Virus record (IMG/VR): IMGVR_UViG_3300011113_000683
Coordinates: 1-29,124 of that record
DNA from: a virus
DNA length: 29,124 nucleotides
Strand: one strand, 5' to 3'
Shown piece after piece: positions 2,388 to 29,124 of the stretch (position 1 is the first letter of the stretch; every line of letters starts with the position of its first letter). A program made the translations under genes and the position numbers. Below the pieces are notes generated by a model. It worked only from the letters and a program-made list of their open reading frames with translations. It was not told the origin of the DNA and searched no databases.

Positions 2388-3972
2388 AATTTTATTTACA
2401 GGAGTTGTTAAACATAATCAAGACCCGTTTGTCACTGGTCAAGTGAGAATCATACCTAAGGACGACGAAGATATTGTTTCTTTGTTGAGTGATTATTATA
2501 AAAAGTCGGGATTATCTGAAAAAGAATTTTACAACGAAGACAAAAGTGATATTAACCAAAACATATTCTACACCAAAAATGACCCTTTTGTATATCAACA
2601 GTTTTCAGACAGTGCTATTAGTATACAACCAAATGTTGGAGCTCTTTGTTTATTAATTTATACCAACAAATCTAGTAATTCAGGTAGAAAAAACCAATTT
2701 TATATTCCAATGCCAAAACATTCTATAGAGAATTTGGTATCTGAAAATGCAAATAAAACCGAAGGAAATTTAGCAAAAGGGGTTAATTATAGTTTTAGAA
2801 AACCTTTAAAGGATGTCAACGGACAATATAACAATAAGAAAACTTTTGGTTGTTTTGCCGAACCTAATGATAACGCATTTTATGGTAAAGGAACTACAAA
2901 TGTTATTTTAAAAAGTAACGATGTACTAATAAGGGCCGGTTCGTGCTTGAATTTAGGGGATGGGTCAGCTCCTGACATAAATACAAAAATGGGATTTATT
3001 CAGGTTTCTAATTTTGCAGGTAACAAAATCAAACTACCAAATAATGTAGTTGACAATAGTGTCCCTGATACAACACCAATATCAAAGGTAGTCGAGTATG
3101 AAATTACTTCAGGTTTAGATTCTCAAACAGATGAATATTCAGGTAATGTCAAAATATTTAATATGCCAAATCTAAAAGATTTGGCTCAGAATTTGTTTGG
3201 ATTTATAACCCCATTACCCGAACAAGTTAAAGCACCAATTAAAGAATTTGCATTTACAAATTTACCAGCATCGGGTGTTTCTGAGTTTGTAAACACCGTT
3301 TTACAAGGAATGAACGATGGTAAAATAGTATTTGAAGATAGTAGTTATCCTTCGTATACACCTGAACAACCTATTTTTCCTTTCTTTTACAGACCATCAA
3401 TAAATTTGAGAAAAATATTAAGTTCTTTGGCTAACCCCACTACCGAACCTACATCGTTTCTAGAGAAATTAAATTTAATTTCAATTTATAGTGAAATAAA
3501 ACTATCAGATTCTTTAGGAATTGCAGGATTTGGATTGGTCAGAGGAAAAAATAAATTTGGACCTGGATACAAAAAAGTTAAACAAGTAACTCCAGCATCT
3601 AAATTTTCAAGTAAGCCATCAAGTTCAACTATTGTTGGTAGTAATACTATATATTTACTAAGTTACGATTCACAGATACCTTCTAACGTCGAGCGTATTA
3701 ATCTTTTGAAAAAAGATTACTATGGGATTTCAGCGGATAGAGTTAGTGATGAAATATTACCCAAAACAGAACCAATGGTTAGAGGAGAAAGTCTTAAAGA
3801 ATTATTAGAGTTGATTGTTTCATTTTTGGTAAACCACTCACATCCATATTCGCAGTTACCTCCTTACGAACAAGCTAAAAGTGAAGATGCAACAATTAGT
3901 AAATCTGACATTACCGCTGAGTTTGCACAATATAGTTCTAAGGTTTTGAATACAAATATTCGAATTAATTGA
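2374..3972 (+). CDS. Baseplate hub protein with gp5-type OB-fold domain
   Basis: A 532-residue protein. Residues about 5-125 look like the N-terminal OB-fold of T4 gp5-type hub proteins: an opening strand FTGVVKHNQDPFVTGQVRI, then DPFVYQQFSD, then NVGALCLLIYTN and NQFYIPMP, the usual order in hub and spike proteins that pass through the tail tube. Further on are an ILKSNDVLIRAG segment and, near residue 487, a motif LLELIVSFLVNHSHPY of the kind often seen at the C-terminus of such hub proteins. No lysozyme domain is visible between them, unlike T4 gp5. Two ATGs (2374 and 2377) are possible; AGGACAG just upstream may serve as a weak ribosome binding site. It overlaps the preceding small gene. 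Confidence 0.7.
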   Translation: MMENRILFTGVVKHNQDPFVTGQVRIIPKDDEDIVSLLSDYYKKSGLSEKEFYNEDKSDINQNIFYTKNDPFVYQQFSDSAISIQPNVGALCLLIYTNKSSNSGRKNQFYIPMPKHSIENLVSENANKTEGNLAKGVNYSFRKPLKDVNGQYNNKKTFGCFAEPNDNAFYGKGTTNVILKSNDVLIRAGSCLNLGDGSAPDINTKMGFIQVSNFAGNKIKLPNNVVDNSVPDTTPISKVVEYEITSGLDSQTDEYSGNVKIFNMPNLKDLAQNLFGFITPLPEQVKAPIKEFAFTNLPASGVSEFVNTVLQGMNDGKIVFEDSSYPSYTPEQPIFPFFYRPSINLRKILSSLANPTTEPTSFLEKLNLISIYSEIKLSDSLGIAGFGLVRGKNKFGPGYKKVKQVTPASKFSSKPSSSTIVGSNTIYLLSYDSQIPSNVERINLLKKDYYGISADRVSDEILPKTEPMVRGESLKELLELIVSFLVNHSHPYSQLPPYEQAKSEDATISKSDITAEFAQYSSKVLNTNIRIN

Positions 3973-3979
3973 TATTTAT
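3973..3979 (+). promoter_or_regulatory. TATTTAT motif, candidate late promoter
   Basis: TATTTAT lies directly after the hub gene's TGA stop and 13 nt before the ATG at 3993. It is the only exact copy just upstream of a gene in the plus-strand structural operon, and could give this gene its own transcript. Confidence 0.4.
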
Positions 3980-3992
3980 CTAATAAAAGATA

Positions 3993-5504
3993 ATGTCAGT
4001 TCATTTTTCATATTTCAAAAAGAATAATACGATACTATATAATAGTTTTACTAATACAGGTAGAGCTCCATATACTCAATTGTATTTCGGTTCAAACAAC
4101 GATGGAATATCCTCACCAGGTTTTAGTAGATTTATATTTGATTTAGATTTGACAGATTTAATTAACAAATATACAGGTACAACAATTACTACCGCCTGTA
4201 CTACAACTTCACCTATCAGACACATTTTGAAAATGACAAATACCTCAAGTTTTGACGATTCATTATTGAATAGTGAAACTTCAGACGGTAGATTAAGGGC
4301 AACATCATTTGATTTATTCTTATTCAGATTGCCAAAAACATCAGGTAATACGGGAACATATCAATTATGGGACGAGGGAGTTGGTTCGGATTATTATGAC
4401 GTTAGAAAAACTATTAATTCAAATAATTCTTTACTTAGTCCAGTAATGTTACCTGATAATAAAAGTTTTTCACAAAGACCTTCAAATTGGTATCACGCGA
4501 CAACAATATCTGGTTGGTCACAAAATGGAATTTATTCAAACACAAACACAGGTTTAGTTAACTATTCAGGATTAACAATTGTAGGTACACAACATTTTCA
4601 ATTTGGTAATGAAAATCTTGAAATTGACATGACAAATGAAATCAATTCAATATTGAATGGAACATTAACCGGAACAACAGGATGGGGAATTGCCTTCCTT
4701 CCTGAGTTAGAAAATATGAGTGGTCTTACCTCAAACTATTCAGTTGGGTTTTTTACAAGGCATACTCAAACTTTTTACGAACCAAAATTAGAAACAATAT
4801 ATGATGATTATATAAATGATAATCGAAATAATTTTTCACAATATAAAGAAAATAAATTATATCTTTATTCATATATAAACGGTGAATTAACAAACTTAGA
4901 CTCTGCTCCAATATTTTCATTATTAGATAGTAACAATAATTTTGTGAATTTTGGTAATGGTGTAACAGAGTTAAATACTTGTTTAAAAACAAAAGGGATT
5001 TATGAGGTAACAATACCGCCTCTTAGTGGTTCGGCACCTTGTACTTTTTATGATGTGTGGAGACCAATTAATTATAATGGCGTTCAACTACCTGACACAG
5101 TTAATTCTGTAATTATGTATCCATATGAAACATTTTTTGAGTTAGGATTCAAAAGTAAAAATCCTTCAATATATGGATTTGATTTTTATGGATTAAAACA
5201 AGATGAAAAAATAGTTAATAATGATTTACGTAAGATTGGTGTATCAATAAAAAAAGCTTATTCAACACAAGAAATTTTGAACGATGTTTCAGCTTATTAT
5301 AGAGTATATGTAAGAGAAGGTACTACTGAAGTTGACGTTCAAGATTGGACTAAAATAAGCAAATCCTCAAACGAATACTTTTTCTTTTTTGACACAAGAG
5401 ACAAAATACCAAATGAGTATTTTATTGATTTAAAAGTATTAAGTTCAGGTGAGGTGAATACTTATAAACAACAGATTAAATTCCAAATAGTAAATCAGAA
5501 ATAA
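3993..5504 (+). CDS. Beta-rich virion structural protein (tail or receptor-binding candidate)
   Basis: A 503-residue protein rich in Ser, Thr, Asn, Tyr and Phe with few helices apparent, as in beta-structured tail and fibre proteins. The first 260 residues resemble a jelly-roll or carbohydrate-binding type module in composition (PGFSRFIFDLDLTDLI, WGIAFLPELE, YSVGFFTRHTQTFYEPKLE), followed by a DNRNNF segment and a second half with DVWRP and YRVYVREGT strands. It follows the gp5-like hub gene and is followed, with a TAATG overlap, by a small leader-bearing gene. Function is inferred from composition and position only: tail fibre, baseplate decoration or whisker-like protein are all possible. 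Confidence 0.55.
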   Translation: MSVHFSYFKKNNTILYNSFTNTGRAPYTQLYFGSNNDGISSPGFSRFIFDLDLTDLINKYTGTTITTACTTTSPIRHILKMTNTSSFDDSLLNSETSDGRLRATSFDLFLFRLPKTSGNTGTYQLWDEGVGSDYYDVRKTINSNNSLLSPVMLPDNKSFSQRPSNWYHATTISGWSQNGIYSNTNTGLVNYSGLTIVGTQHFQFGNENLEIDMTNEINSILNGTLTGTTGWGIAFLPELENMSGLTSNYSVGFFTRHTQTFYEPKLETIYDDYINDNRNNFSQYKENKLYLYSYINGELTNLDSAPIFSLLDSNNNFVNFGNGVTELNTCLKTKGIYEVTIPPLSGSAPCTFYDVWRPINYNGVQLPDTVNSVIMYPYETFFELGFKSKNPSIYGFDFYGLKQDEKIVNNDLRKIGVSIKKAYSTQEILNDVSAYYRVYVREGTTEVDVQDWTKISKSSNEYFFFFDTRDKIPNEYFIDLKVLSSGEVNTYKQQIKFQIVNQK

Positions 5505-14225: not shown

Positions 14226-16049
14226 TTAATCATTTAATAAGTTATTCAAAGTTGAGTTCATTTCATTCAATGTTTTTTTAGCTTTACTCAAATCAATTTC
14301 TTCATTGTCGTTAGCCCAATCTCCTTCTAAAATAATATTTAGTCTATTTTCTCGTGATTCGGGGGCTAATCCTGGCTCTCCTGCCGGTGGTGCGGGTTCG
14401 GCCGGACTAGGTCCTCCTGATGGTGGTGGAGGTGTCATTCCTCCTAAATCTTCACCACCTTCCATTCCTCCTCCTGGTTCAGCGGGGGCTGCAGGTTGTT
14501 CACCTTCTTTTTTACCGTATAATCTATCTAAGTTATCAAACAATCCTGTGTGTGTAATTACTTCAGCTGTTTTTGTTAATTCGGCACCAACAGCATTTTC
14601 GATTCTTTGTTGTTGTAAATCAAGTTTAATTTCCTCATCTGAAAATCCAAGAATATGTTTTTTAGCCCATGATACTGAAGTTGGTGCAATTCCTTGAATT
14701 GCGGTTACCATGTCTTTGTATAACAATATTTTTTCTTTCCACACATCTACCATTAACAAGTCAGCTTGTTTAGATGGGTTTGTTAAGGATAAAGTAAAAT
14801 TTGAAATTTCGTCTTCAAATCCTAATAAAAATAAATGTACAATTGCAATTTTATTCAATTCCTGAATCATACTTTTTTGTATTCTATTAATGGTACGAGC
14901 GAATCGTATGTCCATTAATGCCAAATTCTTACCATCACCAACTGCCTCCTCAAAACCTAAGAATCCTTTTGGAACTCTTAATGCTGTTAACAATTTCTTT
15001 TGAATGTATTCAATATCTGCAATTTCTGATAAATTTTGAGCACCTGCTAATGTCTCTATGGGTGAGGCTTGTGCTGGGTCACGAACAGGAACAAAATAAT
15101 CTTGGTCAACAGCCATTTGATTAAACCTCATGTCTACGTTACCTGTTTGAGGGTCAACAGTTTGAGACCTTTTAAATTTGTTTGCAAATCTTTGGATATA
15201 TGGTTCAACATCGGCATCATCCATATTTCCAACAAACACTTTAAATACTCTTCTTTCAGGAGCTCTTGAAGTTCTGTAAATTAACATTGCATCTTCTGAA
15301 AGTAATAACTGTTTCCAAATCCTTCTTGCCTTTTCAAGCATTGATGTTCCGTATGGAAGTCTTCTGTCGTCGCCCAATAATCTAAAATGGGCAATTTCCC
15401 ATGAATTAAACTCCATGTCTTTTTGTTTCCATTTAAACTTGAGAGCCTTTTTTGATGGGTCAGTTTCAGGGTCAGTTTTTTTAATACCCATACCAGCTTC
15501 ATGTCTCTCAATTTCAATGTTTGGTAATTGCATACATCCAACAACACCTTTTTCAGGGTTGAGTTTAAGGAACACAAAATTGTCACCATATTTACATGTG
15601 TTTCGTGTCCACATTGGTAAATTGGTGTTAATATCTAATGAATTAATGAATAAATCTACAAGTATCGCCTTTATTCTTTTTGAATCCGAATAAATTTGTA
15701 AAATGTGACCGTCTTGGTTTGGAGTTGTTGATTCTTCGGCGTATATGTCTAATGCTGCAGAAATTTCAGGAGTAAACTCCATTGATTCATAATCGTAAAA
15801 TGATGCAAGTCTTGTTGGTTCGTAATATACTGCTTGGGTGTATAGGTTATTTTCTATTCTTGCCCACTGATTGGCCAAATAATATGTTTGACGTGCTTCT
15901 AATTTTTCTCTTTCGTATTCTTGTTTTGAAGTAGTTTTTAAAAGCTCTTTTTTATCGTATTTGTATGTTGGGTAATCTTGTCCTAATAATGAATTAGGAC
16001 CAAATGCTTGTGATAACCTTTGCCATACCGTTAAATTTTGTTCACTCAT
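14226..16049 (-). CDS. Portal protein, gp20-like
   Basis: A 607-residue protein forming the dodecameric DNA gate at the head vertex. Features typical of T4-like portals are an N-terminal QANQWARIENNLY-like region (seen as LANQWARIENNLYTQA), then EISAALDIYAEEST, MWTRNTCKYGDNFVFLKLN, RAPERRVFKVFVGN and LRVPKGFLGFEEA. From about residue 510 an unusual tail of Pro, Gly and Ala (MTPPPPSGGPSPAEPAPPAG) leads to a helical end. An IILE tripeptide in the tail could be a protease site. The gene follows the beta-propeller gene by 39 bases and precedes the core-like gene. The N-terminal 500 residues are close to the full length of T4 gp20. Confidence 0.92.
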   Translation of the reverse strand: MSEQNLTVWQRLSQAFGPNSLLGQDYPTYKYDKKELLKTTSKQEYEREKLEARQTYYLANQWARIENNLYTQAVYYEPTRLASFYDYESMEFTPEISAALDIYAEESTTPNQDGHILQIYSDSKRIKAILVDLFINSLDINTNLPMWTRNTCKYGDNFVFLKLNPEKGVVGCMQLPNIEIERHEAGMGIKKTDPETDPSKKALKFKWKQKDMEFNSWEIAHFRLLGDDRRLPYGTSMLEKARRIWKQLLLSEDAMLIYRTSRAPERRVFKVFVGNMDDADVEPYIQRFANKFKRSQTVDPQTGNVDMRFNQMAVDQDYFVPVRDPAQASPIETLAGAQNLSEIADIEYIQKKLLTALRVPKGFLGFEEAVGDGKNLALMDIRFARTINRIQKSMIQELNKIAIVHLFLLGFEDEISNFTLSLTNPSKQADLLMVDVWKEKILLYKDMVTAIQGIAPTSVSWAKKHILGFSDEEIKLDLQQQRIENAVGAELTKTAEVITHTGLFDNLDRLYGKKEGEQPAAPAEPGGGMEGGEDLGGMTPPPPSGGPSPAEPAPPAGEPGLAPESRENRLNIILEGDWANDNEEIDLSKAKKTLNEMNSTLNNLLND

Positions 16050-16069
16050 AACAACAATAATAATTAATT

Positions 16070-16076
16070 ATAAATA
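16070..16076 (-). promoter_or_regulatory. TATTTAT motif before the portal gene
   Basis: On the minus strand TATTTAT lies 20 nt before the portal ATG in a 39-bp gap, the longest spacing among the copies. The complement reads TATAAATA. Confidence 0.4.
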
Positions 16077-16088
16077 GTAAGAAATAGT

Positions 16089-17384
16089 TTAACATCCTTT
16101 TAGTTTTATAAATGATGGGATACTTTCACCACTTTCAAGTTTAGTAATTCCCGCACCTTTTAAAAAATAACCTCCGTTAGATGATTTATATATAAATTCT
16201 CCTGAAGCTCTTCCAGTACTAATAAAATTTGTTGTATTAAAACTCTCATCAATTGACCCATCAGGGTTTAGTCTCTTATAAACCGTTGTTACAATATCCC
16301 CTTCCTCAACACCATAAGAGACTAATATTTTACCATCAACATCTAAATCTATTGACCTCACAGGACCTGGTAAATTTGGGTTGATAAAAGTATTGTCAAT
16401 TCCAACACCAAAGTCCAATTGTTCAATTCTTAAAATGTAACTATATCCATCAACATTTGTAAAAAACCCACCAACTAAAATTTTACCATTACCAACATAC
16501 TTAATCGAAGTTATATAATCATTAATTTCTGTAAATGGCGAAAACCATTCATCGTCAACATATCCATATTGGTCTAAGAAAGTTATGTTAATATTTCCAA
16601 AGTTTTGATATTCTTCAAATTTTCCTCCAATTGCTATTTTATAATAATTTGGATTATTAGTTGGAATTATTTCTATACTAAAAACAGAAGAAGTATTTGC
16701 CGGCCAAAATTGGGTTTGACGATTAATTTGAGTATCCGTTTGATTGGAAAAATTTATATCTATACTCCCGTCCATGTTAAGTTTATAAATTTGTTGTGAA
16801 TAACTTGGAGTGTTGGCGGTATAATTAATTTTAAAAGGACTTTGACCTGCTCTCATATACGTCAAAATTTTATTATCTGGCGTAATTTTGACTAAAGAGC
16901 GAGCAACAGGATTTGAGGTTCTAAACCCCAAAATGAATGAATTATCAAATGATAAATCCGCATTTAATTTTCTTAAAAATCTATTAGAATTTCCACTCCA
17001 CAAATATTGATTAAGCGGTAATTGTGCAATAGATAGTGGGTTAGTTAAAGAAGTATTGTTAATTAAAACTTCTCCACTTTTACTATCAACAACTGATGTT
17101 CCATTAATTCTACCCAAAATAAGTTTATTTTCACCATAAAAAGGATTTTGGTCTAAGCAAATTATTACAATACCACCCAAACTATGAACAAAATCAGGGT
17201 CATATAAACCTTGTTCAAAAGTACAGGGTACAAAATTGTTAGTACCAGGTTCTATTGCAGGATATTGGTTTGTTTCTGAAAATTGATTTTTGGGTACTAA
17301 AGTTGATGGTGTTCCTGTGTTACCAATAACCATTTTAGTTCCATTAAATTTTCTGTTTGTTTTTTTTCTCTGACTAAGTCCCAT
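16089..17384 (-). CDS. Delta-60 repeat (DUF5122-type) beta-propeller protein
   Basis: A 431-residue protein starting at the ATG that overlaps the terminase stop (TAATG). A longer frame from 17408 is less likely. It contains repeated signatures of the delta-60 repeat family: strands such as GKILVGGFFTNVDGY and YKIAIGGKFEEYQ, with caps YKLNMDGSIDINF, YKRLNPDGSIDESF and FLRKLNADLSFDNSF, spaced roughly 60 residues apart or in multiples. These repeats fold as a beta-propeller and are common in large Bacteroidetes surface proteins. No signal peptide or transmembrane segment is seen. Its place between terminase and portal suggests a virion part such as a head or neck fibre, or a captured adhesin. 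The basic N-terminus (SQRKKTNRKFNG) may anchor it. Confidence 0.75.
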   Translation of the reverse strand: MGLSQRKKTNRKFNGTKMVIGNTGTPSTLVPKNQFSETNQYPAIEPGTNNFVPCTFEQGLYDPDFVHSLGGIVIICLDQNPFYGENKLILGRINGTSVVDSKSGEVLINNTSLTNPLSIAQLPLNQYLWSGNSNRFLRKLNADLSFDNSFILGFRTSNPVARSLVKITPDNKILTYMRAGQSPFKINYTANTPSYSQQIYKLNMDGSIDINFSNQTDTQINRQTQFWPANTSSVFSIEIIPTNNPNYYKIAIGGKFEEYQNFGNINITFLDQYGYVDDEWFSPFTEINDYITSIKYVGNGKILVGGFFTNVDGYSYILRIEQLDFGVGIDNTFINPNLPGPVRSIDLDVDGKILVSYGVEEGDIVTTVYKRLNPDGSIDESFNTTNFISTGRASGEFIYKSSNGGYFLKGAGITKLESGESIPSFIKLKGC

Positions 17385-19135
17385 TATCGCATTCCTCCAA
17401 ATAACCAAGAATGTTTCATATAATCGTCCTTGGTTGCAGTATTAGGTTTATAATTATTGTTTTCAATAATCGGGTTAAAGTAACTTGTTTGTTGTTGGGT
17501 AGTTGTGTTTACGTGCCAAGAATCAATCATGGCCTTTGTATGCTCGGTTACTTTTGTCATTGATGTGAATGAATTTTCACCCACATATATACACATAGCC
17601 GTAGCCATAATTAAATCATCATGATGTCCTTTTTGATGGTCAGGTCTTCCATTTACGTATACAAAAGTTGACATTTCATTAAGTAATCTGTTTGAGTATA
17701 CTTTAAATCCATGTCTCAAATATTCCTCAAAAGTTGCAATAATTTGAACTCGTTTTGCGTTAAAATTAATGCCAGGTATTTTATCCGCAGCTTTTGGGTC
17801 AAACTTCCATTTGTTTTGATAATCAACTCCATCTACATACAAATTTCTATATCCTAATTCTTGTAATTTTCTTGAAGTTGTAACTCCCATTCCACCTGTA
17901 ATATCCACAACAATAAATGCTGAATACATATTACCCCACTTATAACATATTTCAGCCAAAGTATCAGGTGGAATTTTACCAATATATTCTGCAACTTGTT
18001 CCCTTGTATCAAAATCTAATATTTGGAATGTTGAAAAGTCTTCGCTATCCCCTCTACTTACGTCAACTCCCATTATGTATTTGTGCCCAATTTCAGGTTC
18101 TTTCCAAATCCATAATGAACCTCCCATAAATTTGTTTTGAGGTTCCTTAACTAAATTAACTCGTATATTATCTAATATATTGTTATCAAATACATTATCA
18201 CCTGAACCCAAAAATGCACATTCTAACTCCTGATTAACCTTTCTTCTATCATATTTGAGTTTTTTAACCATTGACTCATACCAAGAAGAATGTGGTTTAT
18301 ACCCACTTGCAATTAAAGCCTTTATGTCATCAAAATTCCTTTCTCTTGGAGGTACATCCTTATAATCTATTGTTTCAACTTCAGGGTATTCATCCCTGTT
18401 TAAATAATAATGAATGATGTCGTTAACTTTTATTAACGATAAATCTTTTGTATATCTTGGGTCTTTAAACCAAACCATTTCCGAGATTTTAAACTCGTTC
18501 ATGTTCTTTAATGCTTGGTCATATATTTCATAATAAATTGGGTCATACCCATTTGGGGTTGATACAACAATTACTTTACCCCCTGTGGATAATGACGCCA
18601 TACAAGCCGCCCAAAAATCTCCGTCGGCTTCAATATACGCGGCTTCATCAAATACAAGTATAGTTGGTGTATAACCACGTAAAGCGTCTTTAGATGTAGC
18701 AACAGCTTTTACCTCACACCCGTTTGTTAATTTGAAGTGTCTTTGTGAGTTTTTTTCAGATGAGAATGTAACACCGACCCACTTTGGCCATTGTTCAGTA
18801 AAACCTCTAATTTTATTTGCCATTTCAACTGCAGTATCCAATTTGTTGGCAATGATTAGAATTTTTTCAGGTTTGTTTTTTCTTGCAAAAACCAATCGTT
18901 TTGATGTCCAAGCCGCAGTTACAGTAGATACACCAGCCTGACGATATTTTAATGCAATGTTTTCATTAAAGTTTTCATAGTCTTCCAATAAACTTATTTG
19001 GTCAGGAAATAATTCCAAAGGGACATATTTTGATACCGTGTTGTCATAAGTTTGTAAATAGGTTTTAAGTGCATATTCTGTCGATTTCATACACTTACCA
19101 TATTCAATAATGACTTGCTCTTTTGTTAAACTCAT
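17384..19135 (-). CDS. terL: Terminase large subunit, gp17-like
   Basis: A 583-residue DNA-packaging motor. ATPase motifs: a Walker A variant KYRQAGVST (residues 63-71), Walker B TILVFDEAAYIE (158-169) with catalytic Glu164, and the coupling motif VIVVSTPNG (188-196). The RNase H-like nuclease domain has YIMGVDVSRGDSEDF (Asp358 region), AFIVVDITGG (Asp411) and HHDDLIMA (504-511), the three acidic groups needed for metal binding. The length is close to T4 gp17 (610 aa). The ATG is preceded by a TATTTAT motif at 7 nt and by the terminator of the upstream unit, so this gene starts a transcript. No small terminase is recognised in the window. Confidence 0.95.
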   Translation of the reverse strand: MSLTKEQVIIEYGKCMKSTEYALKTYLQTYDNTVSKYVPLELFPDQISLLEDYENFNENIALKYRQAGVSTVTAAWTSKRLVFARKNKPEKILIIANKLDTAVEMANKIRGFTEQWPKWVGVTFSSEKNSQRHFKLTNGCEVKAVATSKDALRGYTPTILVFDEAAYIEADGDFWAACMASLSTGGKVIVVSTPNGYDPIYYEIYDQALKNMNEFKISEMVWFKDPRYTKDLSLIKVNDIIHYYLNRDEYPEVETIDYKDVPPRERNFDDIKALIASGYKPHSSWYESMVKKLKYDRRKVNQELECAFLGSGDNVFDNNILDNIRVNLVKEPQNKFMGGSLWIWKEPEIGHKYIMGVDVSRGDSEDFSTFQILDFDTREQVAEYIGKIPPDTLAEICYKWGNMYSAFIVVDITGGMGVTTSRKLQELGYRNLYVDGVDYQNKWKFDPKAADKIPGINFNAKRVQIIATFEEYLRHGFKVYSNRLLNEMSTFVYVNGRPDHQKGHHDDLIMATAMCIYVGENSFTSMTKVTEHTKAMIDSWHVNTTTQQQTSYFNPIIENNNYKPNTATKDDYMKHSWLFGGMR

Positions 19136-19142
19136 ATATGTT

Positions 19143-19149
19143 ATAAATA
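19143..19149 (-). promoter_or_regulatory. TATTTAT motif before the terminase gene
   Basis: On the minus strand the bases read AAGTATTTATA, 7 nt before the terminase ATG and just after a terminator. The AAGTATTTAT core also occurs at 24217-24223 and 28521-28527. Confidence 0.5.
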
Positions 19150-19161
19150 CTTAGAAATAAT

Positions 19162-19185
19162 AAACCCCTCAACTTGGAGGGGTTT
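19162..19185 (-). terminator. Terminator hairpin after the 521-aa gene
   Basis: A 9-bp stem, AAACCCCTC and GAGGGGTTT, with a 6-nt loop, lies 8 nt past the minus-strand stop at 19194. The T-tract on the minus strand is interrupted (TTTATTATTT), so termination may be partial. Confidence 0.75.
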
Positions 19186-19193
19186 AATGTTTT

Positions 19194-20759
19194 TTATAAT
19201 CCTAAATCAGATAAGTAATCGTCATCGGTTTCATCGCTCTTATACTTTTTCTTTTCTCTGTATGATGGATTACTTTGCATTTTTGATTGTAATTTCTTTG
19301 ACTTATCTACTAATCCCTGTATGTAGTTTTCTGCAAACTGAGGGTCAGAAAGTCCCATAGTAAATAAAGACTTGGCAAGTTCAACCAAAGTTTCATACTT
19401 TTCTTCAGATAAAAACTTTAACATAAATGGAGTTAAGTCTCTTTGCTCTTGCGAATCTGAAACTAATCTGTTAAATATTTTATAAAACTCTAAATAGAAT
19501 TTTTCACCATATACTAAATCGTAAGCTTCAATTTCAAGTGAAGTTGCTTGTTTTTTAGCAAGTTGACCTTTTTCACTTTTATCACCACCGGCAGATGTGA
19601 AAAACATAATTACACCCTTAACCAATTCGTGAACCAAAAGTGGTAATGTCATCGCTCTCGCTCTGATAATGAACGGGCCAGATTGTGATGGTGATTGCGA
19701 TGGACGATTTTCTTGTCTTGGTGGTTGAGGGGTTTCCTCTTCGTCATCATCTTCTTCATCGTCACCTCCTCCACCTGGTCTTTGCATCCCACTTGGTGGT
19801 TTAACTTCTATTTGACCAATTTGTCCACCTCCAGTTGTTGCAATACTTCCAATATCGGGGAATAACCAATACATGTGTAACATAATTGGTTGTAAAATAT
19901 TTGATAATTGTATAATTCTTTCTCCACCGGGTAATTCCTCAATTCTATCACTACAAATATCATAAGCATTTGCGTAATAAAGAGCCATACCTCTTCTGAA
20001 TAAATTAATAATCATTCTTCTTGACACTTCATCTGAAAATGCCGCTTTAGCTTTTTCCGCAGTTTCAGGAGACATAACAAATGATGTCTCAATAGCCTCT
20101 TTGGCTTTCTCCTCATCAAATTCAACACCCATACTTTCAAAGTCATCCCTCATTTGCTCTAACTTCTCTTTCTTCTCCTCATCAACGTCTGCAAATTTTT
20201 TCATGATTTCTTCATCAGAAATGTTTTCAACCCTGTCCTTCATCCCTTTTAATTTTTTCAAAAAACCTTCAGTAAACTTTCCGTCTAACTGTAATTTCTT
20301 TGCAAAAAACTCTCTATCAATACCCATTGCTTTTTCAACTGACTCACTTGCGATTTCTTCTAAAGCCTCTCTGTTTCTATTTTGTAATTGGAGTAGTTCT
20401 TGTAATAACATCCCAACTAATTGGTATAGTTCGGCAAATGCGGTTTGAGCATCTCTTTTTAATGATTGGTTACCCGCAACTAATCTTCTATCAATCCCTG
20501 AATATCTATTAAACAATCTTTCTAATCTAACAATTGACTCTTTAAACGCTTCAGATGTAAAGAAATCAACTTGAGCTTGGGTTAGTCCAAATTTACTAAG
20601 AGGTAATTCCCCTCTTTCAATTTTTCCTTTAAGTGAACCTGCAGGTCTTGCTCCTCCAACTTCAGTCCCAAAACTCATTGGTGGGGCTTCGTTCAATAAT
20701 TTTTTGAACTTGTCAACCAATTGGTTTTCTGTGATTGTTTTTTTACTCTTTAGTCTCAT
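19194..20759 (-). CDS. Leader-bearing virion or core-like protein, 521 aa (family unrecognised)
   Basis: Residues 1-24 (for example ENQLVDKFKKLLNE, then APPM) look like a protease-type leader ending in LNE. After it comes a helical region with Gln/Leu-rich and Glu/Lys-rich stretches (about 90-225), an SRRMIINLFRRGMALYYANA helix, and an acidic Gly/Pro/Gln linker near 335-370. A conserved-looking helix follows, ARAMTLPLLVHELVKGVIMF, of a kind I associate with uncharacterised T4-like phage proteins. The tail ends in DETDDDYLSDLGL. It follows the repeat-bearing 281-aa gene by one base and ends at a hairpin. Likely a virion or prohead-core protein, judging by leader and neighbourhood. Confidence 0.6.
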   Translation of the reverse strand: MRLKSKKTITENQLVDKFKKLLNEAPPMSFGTEVGGARPAGSLKGKIERGELPLSKFGLTQAQVDFFTSEAFKESIVRLERLFNRYSGIDRRLVAGNQSLKRDAQTAFAELYQLVGMLLQELLQLQNRNREALEEIASESVEKAMGIDREFFAKKLQLDGKFTEGFLKKLKGMKDRVENISDEEIMKKFADVDEEKKEKLEQMRDDFESMGVEFDEEKAKEAIETSFVMSPETAEKAKAAFSDEVSRRMIINLFRRGMALYYANAYDICSDRIEELPGGERIIQLSNILQPIMLHMYWLFPDIGSIATTGGGQIGQIEVKPPSGMQRPGGGGDDEEDDDEEETPQPPRQENRPSQSPSQSGPFIIRARAMTLPLLVHELVKGVIMFFTSAGGDKSEKGQLAKKQATSLEIEAYDLVYGEKFYLEFYKIFNRLVSDSQEQRDLTPFMLKFLSEEKYETLVELAKSLFTMGLSDPQFAENYIQGLVDKSKKLQSKMQSNPSYREKKKYKSDETDDDYLSDLGL

Positions 20760-20760
20760 A

Positions 20761-21606
20761 TCAATTATCTTTTTTGTTTTTTAACATTCCCATTCTTTTA
20801 ACTTTTGACATAAACCATTCTAAATTTTTTGCTTCAGGGTCAGTCAATTCTGCTTCAGGGTCTTCATTTGGATATGGCTCATCCCACGGGTCAAAATCAG
20901 TATCTGTGTCAGGTTTTACACCTGGTTTTGGTTTTACCAAAGGGTCAGGTGAGTTTGACTCAGGGTCAGGTAATTCTGCTTCAGGGTCTTCATTTGGATA
21001 TGGCTCATCCCACGGGTCAAAATCAGTATCTGTGTCAGGTTTTACACCTGGTTTTGGTTTTACCAAAGGGTCAGGTGACTCATTTAATTTTTTAACTCTA
21101 ATTGCTTCTAACAAATCTTTTTTAGAAATTTTAGGTGTTAAATGTTTTTCAACAAGTTCAGACATTTTTTGTTCAATCAAAAATTCATAAGGATTTTTAC
21201 CTTCTTCAATTGTTTTCTTAACACCTTTTACACATCTTTCATATTTTTTCATTTGACCTTTAGTCCATTCACTTCTTTCAGATGTTCCAAATTCATCGGA
21301 CAAACTTGATGTACAAATCGCCCAAGGATTTTTACCTTTTTTAGATTTATTTTTTTCCTCTTCCATTGGTGTTGCAACTGTCTTTCCTGCCTTTGTAGAT
21401 ATTTGATATCCTTTAGGTGATGCGGGTAAATTTGCCGAACCATCACCTGTAATTTCATAAGAAGGTTTGTTAACTACTTTTACCTCAGCTTCCTTTACCA
21501 ATCTTTTATGTAAAGCATTTACCTGAGACTCAGTCATTAAAGAAAGGGTTTTCTTACTGAAACCCAACTTCATTATATCTCCGATTTTTTGATTGTGTGT
21601 TTTCAT
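20761..21606 (-). CDS. Leader-bearing protein with duplicated acidic Pro-rich repeat
   Basis: A 281-residue protein. From Met12 it reads MKLGFSKKTLSLMTESQV and then ALHKRLVKEAEV, a long leader of the same style as other genes here ending in VKE. The start at 21606 overlaps the upstream stop (ATGA); the ATG at 21573 is an alternative. The middle has GKNPWAICTSSLSDEFG and KKYERCVKGVKK, a small two-Cys motif that I recall from other marine phage proteins. Residues about 190-270 are two nearly identical 42-residue units rich in Pro, Asp and Glu (KPKPGVKPDTDTDFDPWDE), from a 126-bp tandem duplication. Possibly an internal head protein; the repeat is probably unstructured. Confidence 0.6.
   Translation of the reverse strand: MKTHNQKIGDIMKLGFSKKTLSLMTESQVNALHKRLVKEAEVKVVNKPSYEITGDGSANLPASPKGYQISTKAGKTVATPMEEEKNKSKKGKNPWAICTSSLSDEFGTSERSEWTKGQMKKYERCVKGVKKTIEEGKNPYEFLIEQKMSELVEKHLTPKISKKDLLEAIRVKKLNESPDPLVKPKPGVKPDTDTDFDPWDEPYPNEDPEAELPDPESNSPDPLVKPKPGVKPDTDTDFDPWDEPYPNEDPEAELTDPEAKNLEWFMSKVKRMGMLKNKKDN
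20846..21078. repeat. 126-bp tandem duplication inside the 281-aa gene
   Basis: Two copies with a 126-bp period. Bases 20846-20952 and 20972-21078 appear identical over 107 bp, with differences only at the edges. The period is 42 codons and keeps the frame, giving two KPKPGVKPDTDTDFDPWDE units. The near identity, even at third codon positions, points to a recent event. Confidence 0.9.
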
Positions 21607-21989
21607 AATTCAAATTCTTTATAAAATTCTAATATTATATCTTTTTCGTATAATTTATCTTTAACTTCTTGTTCAGTCATCCCATAATGAAAAACAAGTC
21701 TATTTTCTAAATCTTTATCCTCTTCCCATGCAAGGGCTACGACTTTATCGACCGCATCCTTCATACAAAAAAAATCAGAGTTTTGAACGAGTTCCATTTC
21801 TATACCTTCTCTGTTCAATACTCCGACCTTTTCAATTTCATTTATGTCTGGTGTTGTTGGGTTTCCGTTAGCAGGATTTGTATCCCAATCATCCCCCCAT
21901 ACATCATCACTTTTTGAGAATACAAACTCGTAAGTTTTATTCCCTTTATAATTAGCTCCTAACCCATTTACAAACACTAAATAACTCAT
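21603..21989 (-). CDS. Hypothetical protein, 128 aa
   Basis: An acidic protein opening with strands SYLVFVNGLGANYKGNKTYE and FVFSKSDDVWGDDWD, then a short linker, a strand segment VGVLNREGIEMELVQ and two helices (KDAVDKVVALAWEED, GMTEQEVKDKLYEKD). It appears to be a small folded alpha/beta protein. It overlaps both neighbours by ATGA, giving strict translational coupling among the 412-, 128- and 281-aa genes. No family is recognised, and no catalytic motif is seen. Confidence 0.6.
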   Translation of the reverse strand: MSYLVFVNGLGANYKGNKTYEFVFSKSDDVWGDDWDTNPANGNPTTPDINEIEKVGVLNREGIEMELVQNSDFFCMKDAVDKVVALAWEEDKDLENRLVFHYGMTEQEVKDKLYEKDIILEFYKEFEL

Positions 21990-24542: not shown

Positions 24543-26597
24543 ATGATAGAATCAATCGACGACGGAAATAAAGGTAAATCAAAAAATCAGTCAAATTCTC
24601 AGACGCCAGTTTTGGATAATTTTAGTAGAGACTTAATAAAATTAGCCCAAGATGGAAAATTAGACCCTGTGGTCGGTAGAGAAAACGAAATAATAAGAAT
24701 TGCACAAATTCTTTCACGAAGAAAGAAAAATAACCCAATTATCATTGGTGAACCAGGTTGTGGTAAAACTGCAATCGTTGAGGGTCTCGCAATGAAGATA
24801 TTTGATGGAGATTGTCCAAGAAATTTATTAGATAAAAGAATTTTGTCCTTAGATTTAAACTCAATCATTGCCGGAACAAAATACAGAGGTCAATTTGAAG
24901 AGAGGTTGAAAGTAATTTTAGAGGAATTACAAGCAAATCCGAATATTGTTTTGTTTATTGATGAAATTCACACCATTGTTGGAGCAGGTAATGCTTCAGG
25001 CTCATTAGACGCATCAAATATATTAAAACCAGCCCTTTCTCGTGGAGAAATTCAATGTATTGGTGCAACTACATTAGACGAATACAAAAAACAGATTGAA
25101 AAAGACGGAGCATTAGATAGAAGATTCCAAAAAGTAGTAGTTTCTCCATCAACTACGGAAGAAACACTACAAATTCTACGAAATGTTAAAGACAAATACG
25201 AAAACTACCATAAAGTTAATTATACTGAGGAAGCATTGAAGACTTGTGTTGAACTTGCTGACAGATATATCACCGACAGAGAGTTTCCTGATAAGGCTTT
25301 TGATATTTTGGATGAAGTTGGAGCAAGAGCTCAAGTTGACGTTAAAAACCCTGAAATTATTGAGGATTTGAAAAAACAATCTCAGGAAATTAAGGAACAA
25401 AAATTACTCGTAGTTAAAAAACAAAACTACGAGATGGCGGCAGAACTCAGAGATAGGGAGAAAAAAGTTTTAACTCAATTAGACGAGGAAAAAAAGAAAT
25501 TTGAAGAAGAATTACTTACAAAAAAGAAAAATATTCCGATTGAATTGGTTTACGAGGTAGTTGCCAACATGACAAAAATACCTGTAACTAAACTTTCATT
25601 AGATGATACCAAAAATCTGATTAATTTGGAAGAAAATTTATCAAAAAGAATTATTGGTCAGTCTGAAGCTGTTTCCAAAATTGCAAAAGCAATCAGAAGA
25701 AATAGACTTGGAATCAAAGACCCAAATAAACCGATTGGTTCATTCATTTTCTTGGGGTCAACGGGTGTTGGTAAGACATTATTAGCCAAGGAACTCGCAA
25801 AACAAATTTTTGGAAGTGATGAAAACCTAATCAGAGTAGATATGTCTGAGTTCCAAGAGAAACATAGTGTTTCTCGTTTGATTGGTTCACCTCCAGGTTA
25901 TATAGGATACGATGAGGGCGGACAATTGACTGAACAAGTGAAGACAAAACCATACTCAGTTGTATTATTTGACGAGGTTGAGAAAGCCCATAAAGATATT
26001 TTCTCGTCATTACTTCAAGTTTTAGATGAAGGTTATTTGTCAGATAGTTTTGGAAGAAAAGTTAACTTCAAAAACTGTTTAATTATAATGACATCAAACA
26101 TTGGAGTTAAAAAATTACAGGATTTTGGGTCAGGAATCGGATTTGGAACTAAAGGTAATGTTTATTCAGACCAAGAAGCCAAAAAGAGTATTTTAACAAA
26201 AGAACTTAAAAACTACTTTGCACCTGAATTCATAAATCGTTTAGATGAAATGATTGTGTTTAACGCTCTTAGTACGGAAGATGTTAAAAAGATTGTTAAA
26301 ATTGAAATGTCGGGTCTTGTTAAGAGATTAAACGGTTTAAAATACAATATCACATTTGACGAGTCCTGTATTGATTACATTTCCAAAATAGGATTTGATG
26401 AAGTATATGGAGCAAGACCACTTAAAAGAGCAATACAAGAAAAATTTGAAGATTTTATTTCTGATGAAGTATTAAAAGAAACAATCTTGGTTGATATTCC
26501 TTACACAATATCTATTACGGACGAAATTGTTACAATTAAAGAAAACGAACCTGAAAAAACTAAGACCAAAAAACCAAGAAAAAAGAAGGGGGAATAA
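24543..26597 (+). CDS. ClpC/ClpA-type AAA+ unfoldase lacking the N-domain
   Basis: A 684-residue double-ring ATPase. D1 has Walker A GEPGCGKT (69-76), pore loop GTKYRGQFEER (111-121) and Walker B VLFIDE (136-141). A short middle segment with a UVR-like NYEMAAELRDREKK motif (about 295-308) resembles ClpC. D2 has Walker A GSTGVGKT (405-412), pore loop GYIGY (452-456) and Walker B VVLFDE (473-478). The tripeptide IGF (532-534) stands where ClpC carries its VGF ClpP-docking loop, so docking to a ClpP peptidase is plausible, unlike in ClpB. The adaptor-binding N-domain (about 140 aa) is absent and replaced by a short Ser/Asn/Lys segment; the C-terminus is a basic tail (TKTKKPRKKKGE). No ClpP gene is in the window. 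Confidence 0.92.
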   Translation: MIESIDDGNKGKSKNQSNSQTPVLDNFSRDLIKLAQDGKLDPVVGRENEIIRIAQILSRRKKNNPIIIGEPGCGKTAIVEGLAMKIFDGDCPRNLLDKRILSLDLNSIIAGTKYRGQFEERLKVILEELQANPNIVLFIDEIHTIVGAGNASGSLDASNILKPALSRGEIQCIGATTLDEYKKQIEKDGALDRRFQKVVVSPSTTEETLQILRNVKDKYENYHKVNYTEEALKTCVELADRYITDREFPDKAFDILDEVGARAQVDVKNPEIIEDLKKQSQEIKEQKLLVVKKQNYEMAAELRDREKKVLTQLDEEKKKFEEELLTKKKNIPIELVYEVVANMTKIPVTKLSLDDTKNLINLEENLSKRIIGQSEAVSKIAKAIRRNRLGIKDPNKPIGSFIFLGSTGVGKTLLAKELAKQIFGSDENLIRVDMSEFQEKHSVSRLIGSPPGYIGYDEGGQLTEQVKTKPYSVVLFDEVEKAHKDIFSSLLQVLDEGYLSDSFGRKVNFKNCLIIMTSNIGVKKLQDFGSGIGFGTKGNVYSDQEAKKSILTKELKNYFAPEFINRLDEMIVFNALSTEDVKKIVKIEMSGLVKRLNGLKYNITFDESCIDYISKIGFDEVYGARPLKRAIQEKFEDFISDEVLKETILVDIPYTISITDEIVTIKENEPEKTKTKKPRKKKGE

Positions 26598-26611
26598 ATC
26601 CCCCTTTTTTT
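26588..26611. terminator. Terminator between convergent Clp and peptidase genes
   Basis: GGGGGA (26588-26593) and TCCCCC (26599-26604) form a stem, followed by seven T on the plus strand. The Clp stop codon lies in the hairpin loop, and the peptidase gene's stop overlaps the T-tract. The minus-strand version lacks a good T run. Confidence 0.85.
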
Positions 26612-27425
26612 ATAAGTTATATTTTGAAACGTGGTTAAATTTATACTTTTTGTAACCAAGTTTTTCAATTAGTTTTTGTCCAGTCCTTGTTCCTGCAAAT
26701 ACCTCATCAACAACCACATATTCATTTTTGGTGTGGTAATTATGGTAACCAACTGAAAAGTTAATACATGAGAAATCAAATTTCTTTTTCAACTGCCAAA
26801 CATCAGTATATGGATGTTGCATAAATTTTGGAGCCGATAACATACCTTCAGTCAAAACTTCTCTTGCCGACTGATGAAATTCAGAATCAGTCTCAAAAAG
26901 TTTCACACCAAAACAATATTCTGTAACCATATAGTCGTCAGGAGCGTCAAACTGAATTGCATAACCTACGTTTTCAAAAAACTTTGGGTCGGCTTCTTTT
27001 GAGCCAATACAACCAACTTCTTCTGATACAAAAAAAGCCGCTTTTAATACATCAAATTCTTCAAGTAACTGAAGACATGCAAAAACTCCACATTTATCGT
27101 CCCCACCAATTCCTGTAGGCTCACCATTATCGTTATAGGCTTTTAATGAATAACTTTTGTTACCTTTTGTATCGGGAAGATATTCTTCACGAATGTTAAT
27201 AGTGTCAATTTTATGAACAGTGTCGGTGTGAGCAACAACACAAGGATAAAATTCACCTTCTGAAATTTGTCCTTTTGTTACATAAATGTTACCCAATTCA
27301 TCAATATGGAAATCATATTTTTTTTCTAACAAATAATCAGTTAGAAATTCAATCATCTTATCCTCTTGGAAAGAATGGGTGGGGATGGACAATACAGTCC
27401 TTAAAAAATCTACATTTTCAATCAT
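26610..27425 (-). CDS. Compact M20-family (peptidase T-like) zinc aminopeptidase
   Basis: A 271-residue protein with the di-zinc peptidase set: VVAHTDTVHK (His66, catalytic Asp68), GIGGDDKCGV (bridging Asp109 or Asp110), FFVSEEVGCIGS (catalytic and ligand Glu135/136), AIQFDAP (Asp160) and YHNYHTKNE (His231). This resembles peptidase T and related M20 enzymes, which trim small peptides in the cytoplasm. Usual family members have about 370-450 residues; here the lid or dimerisation domain seems to be missing, leaving little more than the catalytic core. It converges on the Clp gene across a shared terminator. It could finish off peptides released by Clp proteolysis, which is an inference. Its promoter appears to be host-type. 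Confidence 0.8.
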   Translation of the reverse strand: MIENVDFLRTVLSIPTHSFQEDKMIEFLTDYLLEKKYDFHIDELGNIYVTKGQISEGEFYPCVVAHTDTVHKIDTINIREEYLPDTKGNKSYSLKAYNDNGEPTGIGGDDKCGVFACLQLLEEFDVLKAAFFVSEEVGCIGSKEADPKFFENVGYAIQFDAPDDYMVTEYCFGVKLFETDSEFHQSAREVLTEGMLSAPKFMQHPYTDVWQLKKKFDFSCINFSVGYHNYHTKNEYVVVDEVFAGTRTGQKLIEKLGYKKYKFNHVSKYNL

Positions 27426-27430
27426 AAGGA

Positions 27431-27463
27431 CAAATATAATAAAAATTTTAGATATTAGAACAA
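27431..27463 (-). promoter_or_regulatory. Bacteroidetes-type promoter, possibly giving a leaderless mRNA
   Basis: On the minus strand TATATTTG (27438-27431) fits TAnnTTTG, with TTG at 27463-27461 and 22 nt between. The start codon follows only 5 nt after the box, so the transcript would have almost no leader. The spacing is slightly longer than in the other two promoters of this type. Confidence 0.4.
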
Positions 27464-28504
27464 TTCAGGATGAAATAAAAAATTTTGAAAATCTTCTAAA
27501 TTCATTTTCATTCTTCGGCCAGGGATTACAACAATTATTTTACCGTCTTCAACTTTATCTAACCTAAAAGTTTGACCAGTTTTAGTCCCAAAACTTTTTT
27601 CTTTGGGGAAATTGTATGTTTTGCCAAAATAGTATCCCAATTTTTTTACATAATTAATCAATTCAAAATTTTTCTCTAAGGTTCCTTCTTCTAAATCTTC
27701 AAGTAATTTATCATAAATTTTTTCTAATTGTCTATAAACCGAACTATCAAATGCGTCGCGATTAAAATTTCTATCATCATAATATGCGTGATAATCATCA
27801 TATAAATCCTCATCAAATGTTAAATTATTCTCTGAAACATACTGCTTAAGACACTCAACAAAATCAATACTTTGTTTATCAATGTCATATTCTTCAAAAA
27901 ATTGGATTAGTAAGCTGGCAGTTGTAATGTATTTTTCCGCGCATCTTTGTTCAAAGAAATGTATATCGTGAAATTTATTACATAATTGTTTTATTACATA
28001 TTCTCTAAGTCCGGCAACTAAGGCTTCATCATAATACTCAGCATATTCATAAGCGATTTGGTTACAGGCGTCCTCATCAATTGATAATAAAAGTCTTGCA
28101 ATTTCTTCATATTGGTCAGTAACAGTTATATTTAAATTTGGAGATGTCATGTCAAGAATTTTCTGAATCAATTTATGATTATCTTCATTCATATATCTTA
28201 AAATATAACCTTCTCTAAAATCATCATCAGCATAACTACTGTCAATAAAAACTCCACTGTGATAAAATCCTCTACTTCCACCAAACGCAACTGAAATTAG
28301 ATATTTGTTATTAGTTTCTCTACCTTCATCGGTAAACATCTCAACATATTCACTTTCAGTAAATGTTAATACCACAACACTTTTACCTAAATTTTTTTCA
28401 TTATGATAATTTATATCAATTGTTCCACTCTCGTCAGACCTTCTAACTGAATTTGGAGTTGATTCTCCATTAACATATGATTTTAATTTTTCGTATATTG
28501 ACAC
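27455..28504 (-). CDS. Hypothetical acidic protein, 349 aa
   Basis: Starts with a GTG at 28504, 16 nt after a TATTTAT motif. The first 120 residues are mixed, with strands KSVVVLTFTESEYVEMF and KYLISVAFGGSRGFYHSGVF. The central part is strongly acidic and aromatic-rich, with helices (QIAYEYAEYYDEALVAGL, then DEDLYDDYHAYYDDRNF). The C-terminus has strands (TGQTFRLDKVEDGKIIVVIP) that could be a small beta-barrel. No domain is recognised. Its 3' end carries the promoter of the downstream peptidase gene. The acidity could reflect DNA mimicry or simply a structural role; neither is supported further. Confidence 0.55.
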   Translation of the reverse strand: MSIYEKLKSYVNGESTPNSVRRSDESGTIDINYHNEKNLGKSVVVLTFTESEYVEMFTDEGRETNNKYLISVAFGGSRGFYHSGVFIDSSYADDDFREGYILRYMNEDNHKLIQKILDMTSPNLNITVTDQYEEIARLLLSIDEDACNQIAYEYAEYYDEALVAGLREYVIKQLCNKFHDIHFFEQRCAEKYITTASLLIQFFEEYDIDKQSIDFVECLKQYVSENNLTFDEDLYDDYHAYYDDRNFNRDAFDSSVYRQLEKIYDKLLEDLEEGTLEKNFELINYVKKLGYYFGKTYNFPKEKSFGTKTGQTFRLDKVEDGKIIVVIPGRRMKMNLEDFQNFLFHPELF

Positions 28505-28520
28505 AATAAAACTTTTTTAA

Positions 28521-28527
28521 ATAAATA
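28521..28527 (-). promoter_or_regulatory. TATTTAT motif before the 349-aa gene
   Basis: On the minus strand CAAGTATTTATT lies 16 nt before the GTG at 28504. It sits back to back with the tmRNA promoter, whose TTG element begins 2 nt further on. Confidence 0.45.
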
Positions 28528-28528
28528 C

Positions 28529-28559
28529 TTGTGGATTAAAGAATATATTTATATATTTG
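28529..28559 (+). promoter_or_regulatory. Bacteroidetes-type promoter of the tmRNA gene
   Basis: TTG at 28529-28531 and TATATTTG at 28552-28559 are 20 nt apart, matching the Bacteroidetes primary-sigma consensus. The mature tmRNA begins 25 nt after the -7 box, leaving a short 5' extension to be removed by processing. Confidence 0.7.
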
Positions 28560-28583
28560 TAAAACAAAAGTTCTTTGAATTAT

Positions 28584-28978
28584 GGGGATGTTTTTTGGCT
28601 TTGACAGGAATGGATTTGTCATAAAACGCACGTCGGGGCTAAGCTAACCCTGTTTAACTGGCTTGAATTTTAAACGGCAACGTGATTAACAAACTTTCTA
28701 CAATCGGTTTAATCCGCACTGAGGAAGTATCTGTAGCTTAATCTGGGATTAACCTACTAGGGGTCGGCAGACATATAACCTTGCAACAGAAGTCGTAGTT
28801 GTGGTGTGGTTTCTACCCAAAAAGAAACAAAGTGGATGATTAGTTCTCAGTAAACCGAACCACTATAAAATAAGGGAATTGTGAAGTTTCGGATTGTTTA
28901 GAAAAACAATGACCTAAGCGTGTAGTGTTTTATGGTAGACTTTTTTGGACCCGGGTTCGACCCCCGGCATCTCCACCA
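28584..28978 (+). ncRNA. ssrA: tmRNA (transfer-messenger RNA)
   Basis: A 395-nt tmRNA, which frees stalled ribosomes and adds a degradation tag to the unfinished protein. The 5' end GGGGATG pairs with CATCTCC before an encoded ACCA 3' end (28978); GGCTTTGACAGG follows the 5' arm as in known tmRNAs, and the T-arm CCGGGTTCGACCCCCGG is intact. GGGG and AACCCTG segments (28635-28651) look like pseudoknot 1. The likely tag frame resumes at GGC (28676) and reads 21 codons to TAA (28739-28741), beginning Gly-Asn-Val and ending EEVSVA. That is longer than the usual 8-15 residues, and the end differs from the common LAA. The Gly start fits Bacteroidetes-style tags. The exact resume codon is inferred. 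Phage genes flank it on the left. Confidence 0.93.
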
Positions 28979-28981
28979 ATA

Positions 28982-29124
28982 TTATGAAACGGAGGACTCG
29001 TCCTCTGTTTCATTTATTTCATTACAAATCCTCATTGTCGAATTCAAATCTTCAATATTTGTCGGATTATAAGAAATATGGAAGTGTCCTCCAGTAGCTC
29101 CTCTTGATGGAAATCTATACTCAT
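28982..29124 (-). CDS. C-terminal end of an unidentified protein (partial)
   Basis: A minus-strand frame enters from the right edge and ends at a TAA at 28984-28982, giving about 46 residues: YRFPSRGATGGHFHISYNP, then a helical acidic end (NSTMRICNEINETEDESSVS). The stop is only 3 nt from the tmRNA 3' end, and the last codons contain the tmRNA terminator hairpin. The GATGGHFHISY segment looks like part of a folded domain, but I do not recognise it. Confidence 0.55.
   Translation of the reverse strand, partial: EYRFPSRGATGGHFHISYNPTNIEDLNSTMRICNEINETEDESSVS
28986..29011 (+). terminator. Terminator hairpin of the tmRNA gene
   Basis: GAAACGGAGGA and TCCTCTGTTTC form an 11-bp stem (one G-T pair) with a CTCG loop, 8 nt after the tmRNA 3' end, followed by a moderately T-rich tract. 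The hairpin also encodes the last residues of the convergent gene. Confidence 0.75.

Follow-up and report, generated by a model that had tools for sequence, protein, structure and literature searches.

Phage-encoded transfer-messenger RNAs (tmRNAs) have been known for years, and to our knowledge their function has never been settled. In bacteria, trans-translation followed by ClpXP or ClpCP proteolysis employs a tmRNA, SmpB, an AAA+ unfoldase, ClpP and peptidases, and matching parts, with the same succession of roles, were recognised here between the phage relatives and a locus in a 29,124-base virus record (IMGVR_UViG_3300011113_000683; the whole stretch is hereafter called the window), which is a fragment of a giant-phage genome. 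The locus differs from the bacterial pathway in a tag of 21–22 amino acids (aa) without an LAA end and in an unfoldase without an N-domain, and the phage relatives encode all the parts.

A tmRNA is supplied by the phage, as here, in Bxz1-like mycobacteriophages, Bacillus phage G and methylophage Melnitz (PMC4131195, PMC9004378). The tmRNA of Melnitz is in two pieces and under a riboswitch, whereas that of the window is in one piece and linked to an unfoldase and a peptidase and, in relatives, to SmpB and ClpP. The Melnitz authors proposed tagging of host proteins for recycling or for upkeep of the hijacked machinery, and their paper does not mention 'Clp' (PMC9004378). Huge phages with tmRNA, found there by ARAGORN, and SmpB are reported in a further study (PMC7162821); the likeness lies in these two components, and the distant relatives considered here include metagenomic phage genomes of 634–642 kb. 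The passages considered name tmRNA and SmpB only, and the main text of that study does not contain 'Clp'. A limited search of the literature found no description of the linked module or of its tag; tmRNA, SmpB and Clp genes of huge phages had each been known before, and what appears to be new is their conserved grouping into a module, together with its tag.

Conserved gene block and its partners

The original prediction had joined a Clp unfoldase, an M20 peptidase and a tmRNA into one protein-turnover module, and the three features were indeed found within 4.5 kb (Table 1). Their co-occurrence was surveyed from three starting points, namely the unfoldase, the terminase, which presupposes none of the three genes, and the tag DNA, and the three surveys agreed that it is non-random. 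The unfoldase-started count was limited to the 46 contigs that extend 5.5 kb or more beyond the unfoldase, and revealed the order clp/m20/o349/tmRNA, in which o349 is an open reading frame (ORF) omitted by the original prediction; m20 and tmRNA were present in 46 of 46 and o349 in 45 of 46. Terminase-chosen contigs that reached far enough had the same block in the same order, except L222, and tag-DNA-chosen contigs contained clp in 24 of 25 and the peptidase in 24 of 25. The peptidase of L222 was not found within 10 kb, an apparent lack that we attribute to two insertions lengthening its unfoldase gene, and contig G055 of L222 still had a tmRNA above cut-off.

The relatives also encode further parts required for a pathway of this kind, which strengthens the idea of a module. 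In 25 of them smpB adjoins the tmRNA, giving clp/m20/o349/tmRNA/smpB, and the SmpB of one (L488) was above the NCBIfam equivalog cut-off; in G004 and G005 smpB is at a distance of about 94 kb. Five contigs (G316, G317, G318, G320 and G321) carry clp, peptidase, o349, tmRNA, smpB and clpP together, and in two more, G001 and G047, clpP accompanies clp, peptidase and tmRNA. Those contig ClpPs that were read have kept the catalytic Ser, His and Asp, and relatives of the G001 ClpP are encoded in 89 viral contigs. A host ClpP had been assumed; the closest large relative, G001, encodes its own. LR756504, a distant phage of 636 kb, has 3.7 kb between clp and smpB, which to some extent supports a functional link independently. 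It was also noticed that LR756502, a 642-kb phage, has a short ClpP-like gene 2.6 kb from smpB (L490:438-1004 and 3586-4023).

The tmRNA and its tag

The sequences compared comprised 61 distinct unfoldases, 58 aligned peptidases, 65 distinct tmRNAs and 54 distinct sequences upstream of the tmRNA. The tmRNA calls were made with the Rfam covariance model RF00023 at a cut-off of 47 bits; since ARAGORN, when run on the window, did not detect the tmRNA at 28584-28978, a blank from that program was not taken as absence. RF00023 covered the window tmRNA over its full length (model 1–374, 124.3 bits, E 1.7e-48). The failure of ARAGORN suggests that huge-phage surveys relying on it probably undercount tmRNA.

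The tag reading frame of the window starts with GGC at 28676, stops with TAA at 28739 and encodes GNVINKLSTIGLIRTEEVSVA, the full appended tag being (A)GNVINKLSTIGLIRTEEVSVA. In the 65 distinct tmRNA sequences the tags of the clade were 21–22 aa long and ended with VSVA, VTVA, VAVA, VVA or VNVA, whereas those of Bacteroidota (n=31, a draw of the best-scoring loci plus one more) were 9–10 aa long and ended with YALAA, YRLAA, YSLAA or YAMAA in 30 of 31 ARAGORN-read loci. The tag had earlier been called odd, and the comparison with these sampled Bacteroidota bears this out. Over 16 gap-free codons, the ratio of nonsynonymous to synonymous polymorphism (pN/pS) was 0.42 in frame, whereas the shifted frames gave 0.93 and 2.2; of all variation, 53% fell on third codon positions (p=0.0007 by permutation of 32 distinct cores, relatedness ignored). 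This substitution pattern shows that purifying selection acts on the tag peptide itself. When bacterial genomes were searched with the tag DNA, no match was obtained.

Two further phages also gave tags. In LR756504 the tmRNA tag is DNVNSFEQSILNELFAPVEMAVAA, encoded away from the clp/smpB pair, and in the 484-kb phage LR756508 (L485) an apparent 32-aa tag, ADYESAGFTAEDFAQMDGESLYHGSERKPAAV, was read in a frame chosen by eye; the latter suggests that many huge phages may have long tags. A tag call in L554 was evidently spurious and was set aside.

In the acceptor stem, GGGGATG pairs with CATCTCC and is followed by ACCA; the third pair is G-U (G3-U70 type), an alanine identity feature. Host-type promoters had been claimed for both the peptidase and the tmRNA. 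For the tmRNA the claim stood, with a promoter of the form TTG-N20-TATATTTG situated 25 bases upstream and recurring in 43 of the 54 distinct upstream sequences, whereas for the peptidase it did not, as a scan of the minus strand upstream of the gene recognised no promoter. Hairpins 3′ of the CCA, such as that of the window, occurred in the relatives' tmRNAs as well.

In 8 relatives (L007, 14402-14631; L006, L012, L013, L016, L017, L028 and L119), a group I intron, about 230 bases long, splits the T-loop of the tmRNA, and 6 of the 8 were above the cut-off of Rfam Intron_gpI. Pairing is possible between the GGGTT preceding the intron and GGACCC inside it, and places U-G at the splice site; the 3′ end of the intron is G, and excision in silico restores the tmRNA loop. 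By comparison with the described T-loop group I introns (PMC11915505), the insertion after GGGTT is apparently at position 3; here it lies in phage tmRNA, and it is absent from the window. In addition, a GOLLD RNA was noticed about 1.6 kb past the tmRNA in L053 (16465-16858), and in two huge phages such an RNA lies 2 to 6 kb from the unfoldase gene (L002:17538-17943; L003:14061-14467).

Two proteins encoded near clpP in G001 (L491:5769-6800 and 15492-17090) had type IX secretion system (T9SS) sorting domains, types A and B, above NCBIfam cut-offs, and such domains are typical of Bacteroidota. Because of these domains, the host of the phage is probably a member of the Bacteroidota, with which the form of the promoter and the site of the T-loop intron agree, position 3 having been reported only from Bacteroidia (PMC11915505). 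Bacterial matches of the unfoldase, of about 50% identity and mostly to actinobacterial ClpC, pointed to no particular host and were left out of the argument.

The unfoldase, the peptidase and the 349-aa protein

Pfam identified AAA_2, AAA_lid_9 and ClpB_D2-small in the window unfoldase, and no match to Clp_N. The best solved-structure match was ClpC 6em8 (residues 9-645), not ClpB, and both NCBIfam equivalog cut-offs were missed (ClpB, 819 versus 1232 bits; ClpA, 718 versus 993 bits), wherefore the protein is named ClpC-type rather than ClpA or ClpB. In common with 6em8 are two AAA+ domains, the UVR-type M-domain and the ClpP loop; the phage protein lacks the N-domain and has 684 aa versus about 818. 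The two AAA+ domains, with Walker A and B, pore loops and Arg finger, are kept in the 61 distinct sequences, and the ClpP loop reads VGF in 40, IGF in 20 and LGF in 1. The N-domain is missing from all 61, the distance from the start to the LDP motif opening D1 being 35–54 residues in the relatives measured, and the unfoldases of LR745206, LR756502 and LR756508 likewise begin just before D1. From such starts, loss of the N-domain is old and not peculiar to the window fragment. Thus both the docking tripeptide, in the form [IVL]GF, and the lost N-domain, to which attention had been drawn from the window only, hold throughout the family. PADLOC matches of the unfoldase reflected generic AAA+ similarity only and were discarded.

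Many of the relatives carry a basic C-terminal tail, KKKGE (30 of 61 end in KGE; window 26583-26597). The unfoldase gene of L222 (reverse complement 16896-21749) is interrupted, as are those of G032, G042 and G048. Intein-like halves flank the insertions in L222, in the D1 Walker A (GEPG|CVLGDTI...VVSHN|CGKT) and in the D2 Walker A (GSTGVGK|CVCEDTE...ILSHN|TLLA); between the halves are stop codons and endonuclease-like ORFs, an arrangement resembling split inteins with a very short N-part. The portal match of L222 is split as well.

The peptidase passed PF01546 just barely (25.0 bits versus a cut-off of 24.6), and its nearest solved structures were PepT-like, with weak similarity. Pfam found no dimerisation (lid) domain, for which 271 aa are too short, and the metal-ligand and catalytic motifs HTD, GGD(D/N), EE, (Q/E)FD and YHT are kept in the 58 aligned peptidases, in keeping with the stripped-down M20 enzyme originally proposed. 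The M20/M42 PepT-like peptidases 3gb0 and 3rza share the metal-ligand motifs (HTD, GGDDK, SEE, QFD and YHT), and the phage enzyme differs from them in its length, in having no lid domain and in its weakly similar sequence.

The peptidase and the ORF of 349 aa are probably on a shared transcript. The 349-aa family is variable in length and sequence (22–62% identity to the window protein). An AlphaFold (AF2) model of the protein had a predicted local distance difference test score (pLDDT) of 87.4 and a predicted template modelling score (pTM) of 0.77; a fold search of PDB with it gave no match at E<=0.001, and family searches with the protein gave nothing above cut-off. As a guess, the protein might be an adaptor or regulator.

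Table 1. Features of the locus, with positions in the window
Feature	Position	Strand	Basis or remark
N-domain-less ClpC-type AAA+ unfoldase, 684 aa	24543..26597	+	Pfam/PHROG/NCBIfam; ClpC 6em8
D1 Walker A GEPGCGKT, residues 69-76	24747..24770	+	invariant in 61 sequences
UVR-like ClpC M-domain motif, residues 293-307	25419..25463	+	relatives' alignment
D2 Walker A GSTGVGKT, residues 405-412	25755..25778	+	relatives' alignment
ClpP-docking tripeptide IGF, residues 532-534	26136..26144	+	[IVL]GF in 61/61
Lid-less M20/PepT-like metallopeptidase, 271 aa	26610..27425	-	PF01546, phrog_4191
Conserved protein (o349), 349 aa	27455..28504	-	alignment, AF2; ORF between peptidase and tmRNA
Bacteroidota-type promoter TTG-N20-TATATTTG, serving tmRNA	28529..28559	+	promoter scan
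One-piece tmRNA (ssrA), CCA encoded, intron-free in window	28584..28978	+	RF00023
Tag reading frame GNVINKLSTIGLIRTEEVSVA with stop TAA	28676..28741	+	sequence; clade comparison
T-arm of tmRNA	28951..28967	+	intron site of 8 relatives corresponds to 28957/28958, after GGGTT
Terminator-like hairpin, then T-rich sequence	28986..29011	+	direct sequence reading

Elsewhere in the window a T4-type head module was found, comprising the major head protein, prohead protease S77, portal and terminase.

Proposed pathway and alternative explanations

We consider it rather probable that a phage-run trans-translation system feeding a phage ClpC-ClpP protease has its conserved core in this locus, in huge phages probably infecting Bacteroidota. 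The phage alanyl-tmRNA, together with SmpB of phage or host origin, would enter stalled ribosomes, and the unfinished chain would receive (A)GNVINKLSTIGLIRTEEVSVA. The unfoldase, being devoid of the N-domain through which host adaptors act, would accept the tagged protein without them and thread it into the ClpP encoded by relatives, docked on the conserved [IV]GF loop, and the PepT-like peptidase would cut the peptides so formed down to amino acids. The phage would likely gain free ribosomes during the degradation of host mRNA, and amino acids as well. Recognition of the tag, pairing with ClpP, the role of the peptidase, timing and benefit are what we infer in this scheme.

Several observations weigh against this reading. 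Neither SmpB nor ClpP is encoded in the 29-kb window, and the clpP of G001 is some 98 kb further downstream than its tmRNA. In the 634- and 642-kb phages, which possess clp, clpP and smpB, no tmRNA scored above cut-off. Moreover, clp and tmRNA are on one strand and the peptidase and o349 on the opposite one, and the flanking genes KTSC, o251 and terminase are conserved equally, so that synteny alone is no proof of joint function. ClpP was not found in most large relatives, which we read as truncation because most of these contigs stop short of 98 kb past the tmRNA; a comparison of positions showed that most relatives without ClpP or SmpB end short of the distances in G001, G004 and G005. Conversely, clp was found on 0 of 14 ClpP contigs, nearly all of which end before the G001 distance, a 214,776-bp contig excepted.

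The equal conservation of neighbouring structural-region genes, in order as much as the trio, would fit a situation without any joint pathway, in which separate accessory genes are kept by co-linearity within one clade, host proteases handle the tmRNA products and the unfoldase has other substrates; LR745206 and LR756502, with clp and no tmRNA within 20 kb, would fit it too. We regard this explanation as unlikely, since SmpB, the dedicated partner of tmRNA, is within the same block in 25 contigs, the 3.7-kb spacing of clp and smpB is seen in the distant LR756504, ClpP is encoded too and the tag is selected as a peptide. Alternatively, the tag could be a shield or decoy, the phage tmRNA outcompeting that of the host and the odd end keeping truncated chains from host proteases, with ribosome release as the gain and the unfoldase separate. 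A tag twice as long as those of the sampled Bacteroidota, ending with VSVA, VTVA or VVA and not with ALAA, AMAA or RLAA, is what such a function might look like, and the tmRNA of phage DS6A is reported as approximately the tRNA-like domain only, a molecule of the kind that inhibits host tmRNA (PMC11915505, PMC4131195). On the other hand, a shield would have no obvious need for 21–22 conserved residues or for a linked unfoldase and ClpP. Tag ends of the -VA type, moreover, support ClpXP degradation in E. coli, as in the GFP-LVA variants, and the shield is in our view improbable. Lastly, the unfoldase gene adjoins the head and packaging gene region, and its product might serve virion assembly or act on host proteins, as a chaperone or remodelling factor working without ClpP. 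The [IVL]GF tripeptide in 61 of 61 sequences, the best structural match to ClpC and not ClpB, and the seven relatives whose unfoldase contig also encodes ClpP (G001, G047, G316, G317, G318, G320 and G321) make this highly improbable.

Within the phage-run trans-translation that we favour, the dissimilarity of the tag to those of the presumed hosts suggests that the phage may run a private line of protein disposal. By this extension, which we put forward tentatively and hold to be doubtful, host adaptors would not serve the long tag, its sole reader would be the adaptor-independent phage ClpC with phage ClpP, and the 349-aa protein would be a phage-specific adaptor or regulator. Such an orthogonal channel would keep proteins stalled during infection apart from host proteolysis, and would offer a new orthogonal degron-protease pair usable as a tool. 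The conserved block and the selected tag make the function of a phage tmRNA directly testable, by asking which protease, of phage or host, reads the tag (AGNVINKLSTIGLIRTEEVSVA). If the proposed pathway is true, giant phages would replace not only parts of translation but also the quality-control line behind it.

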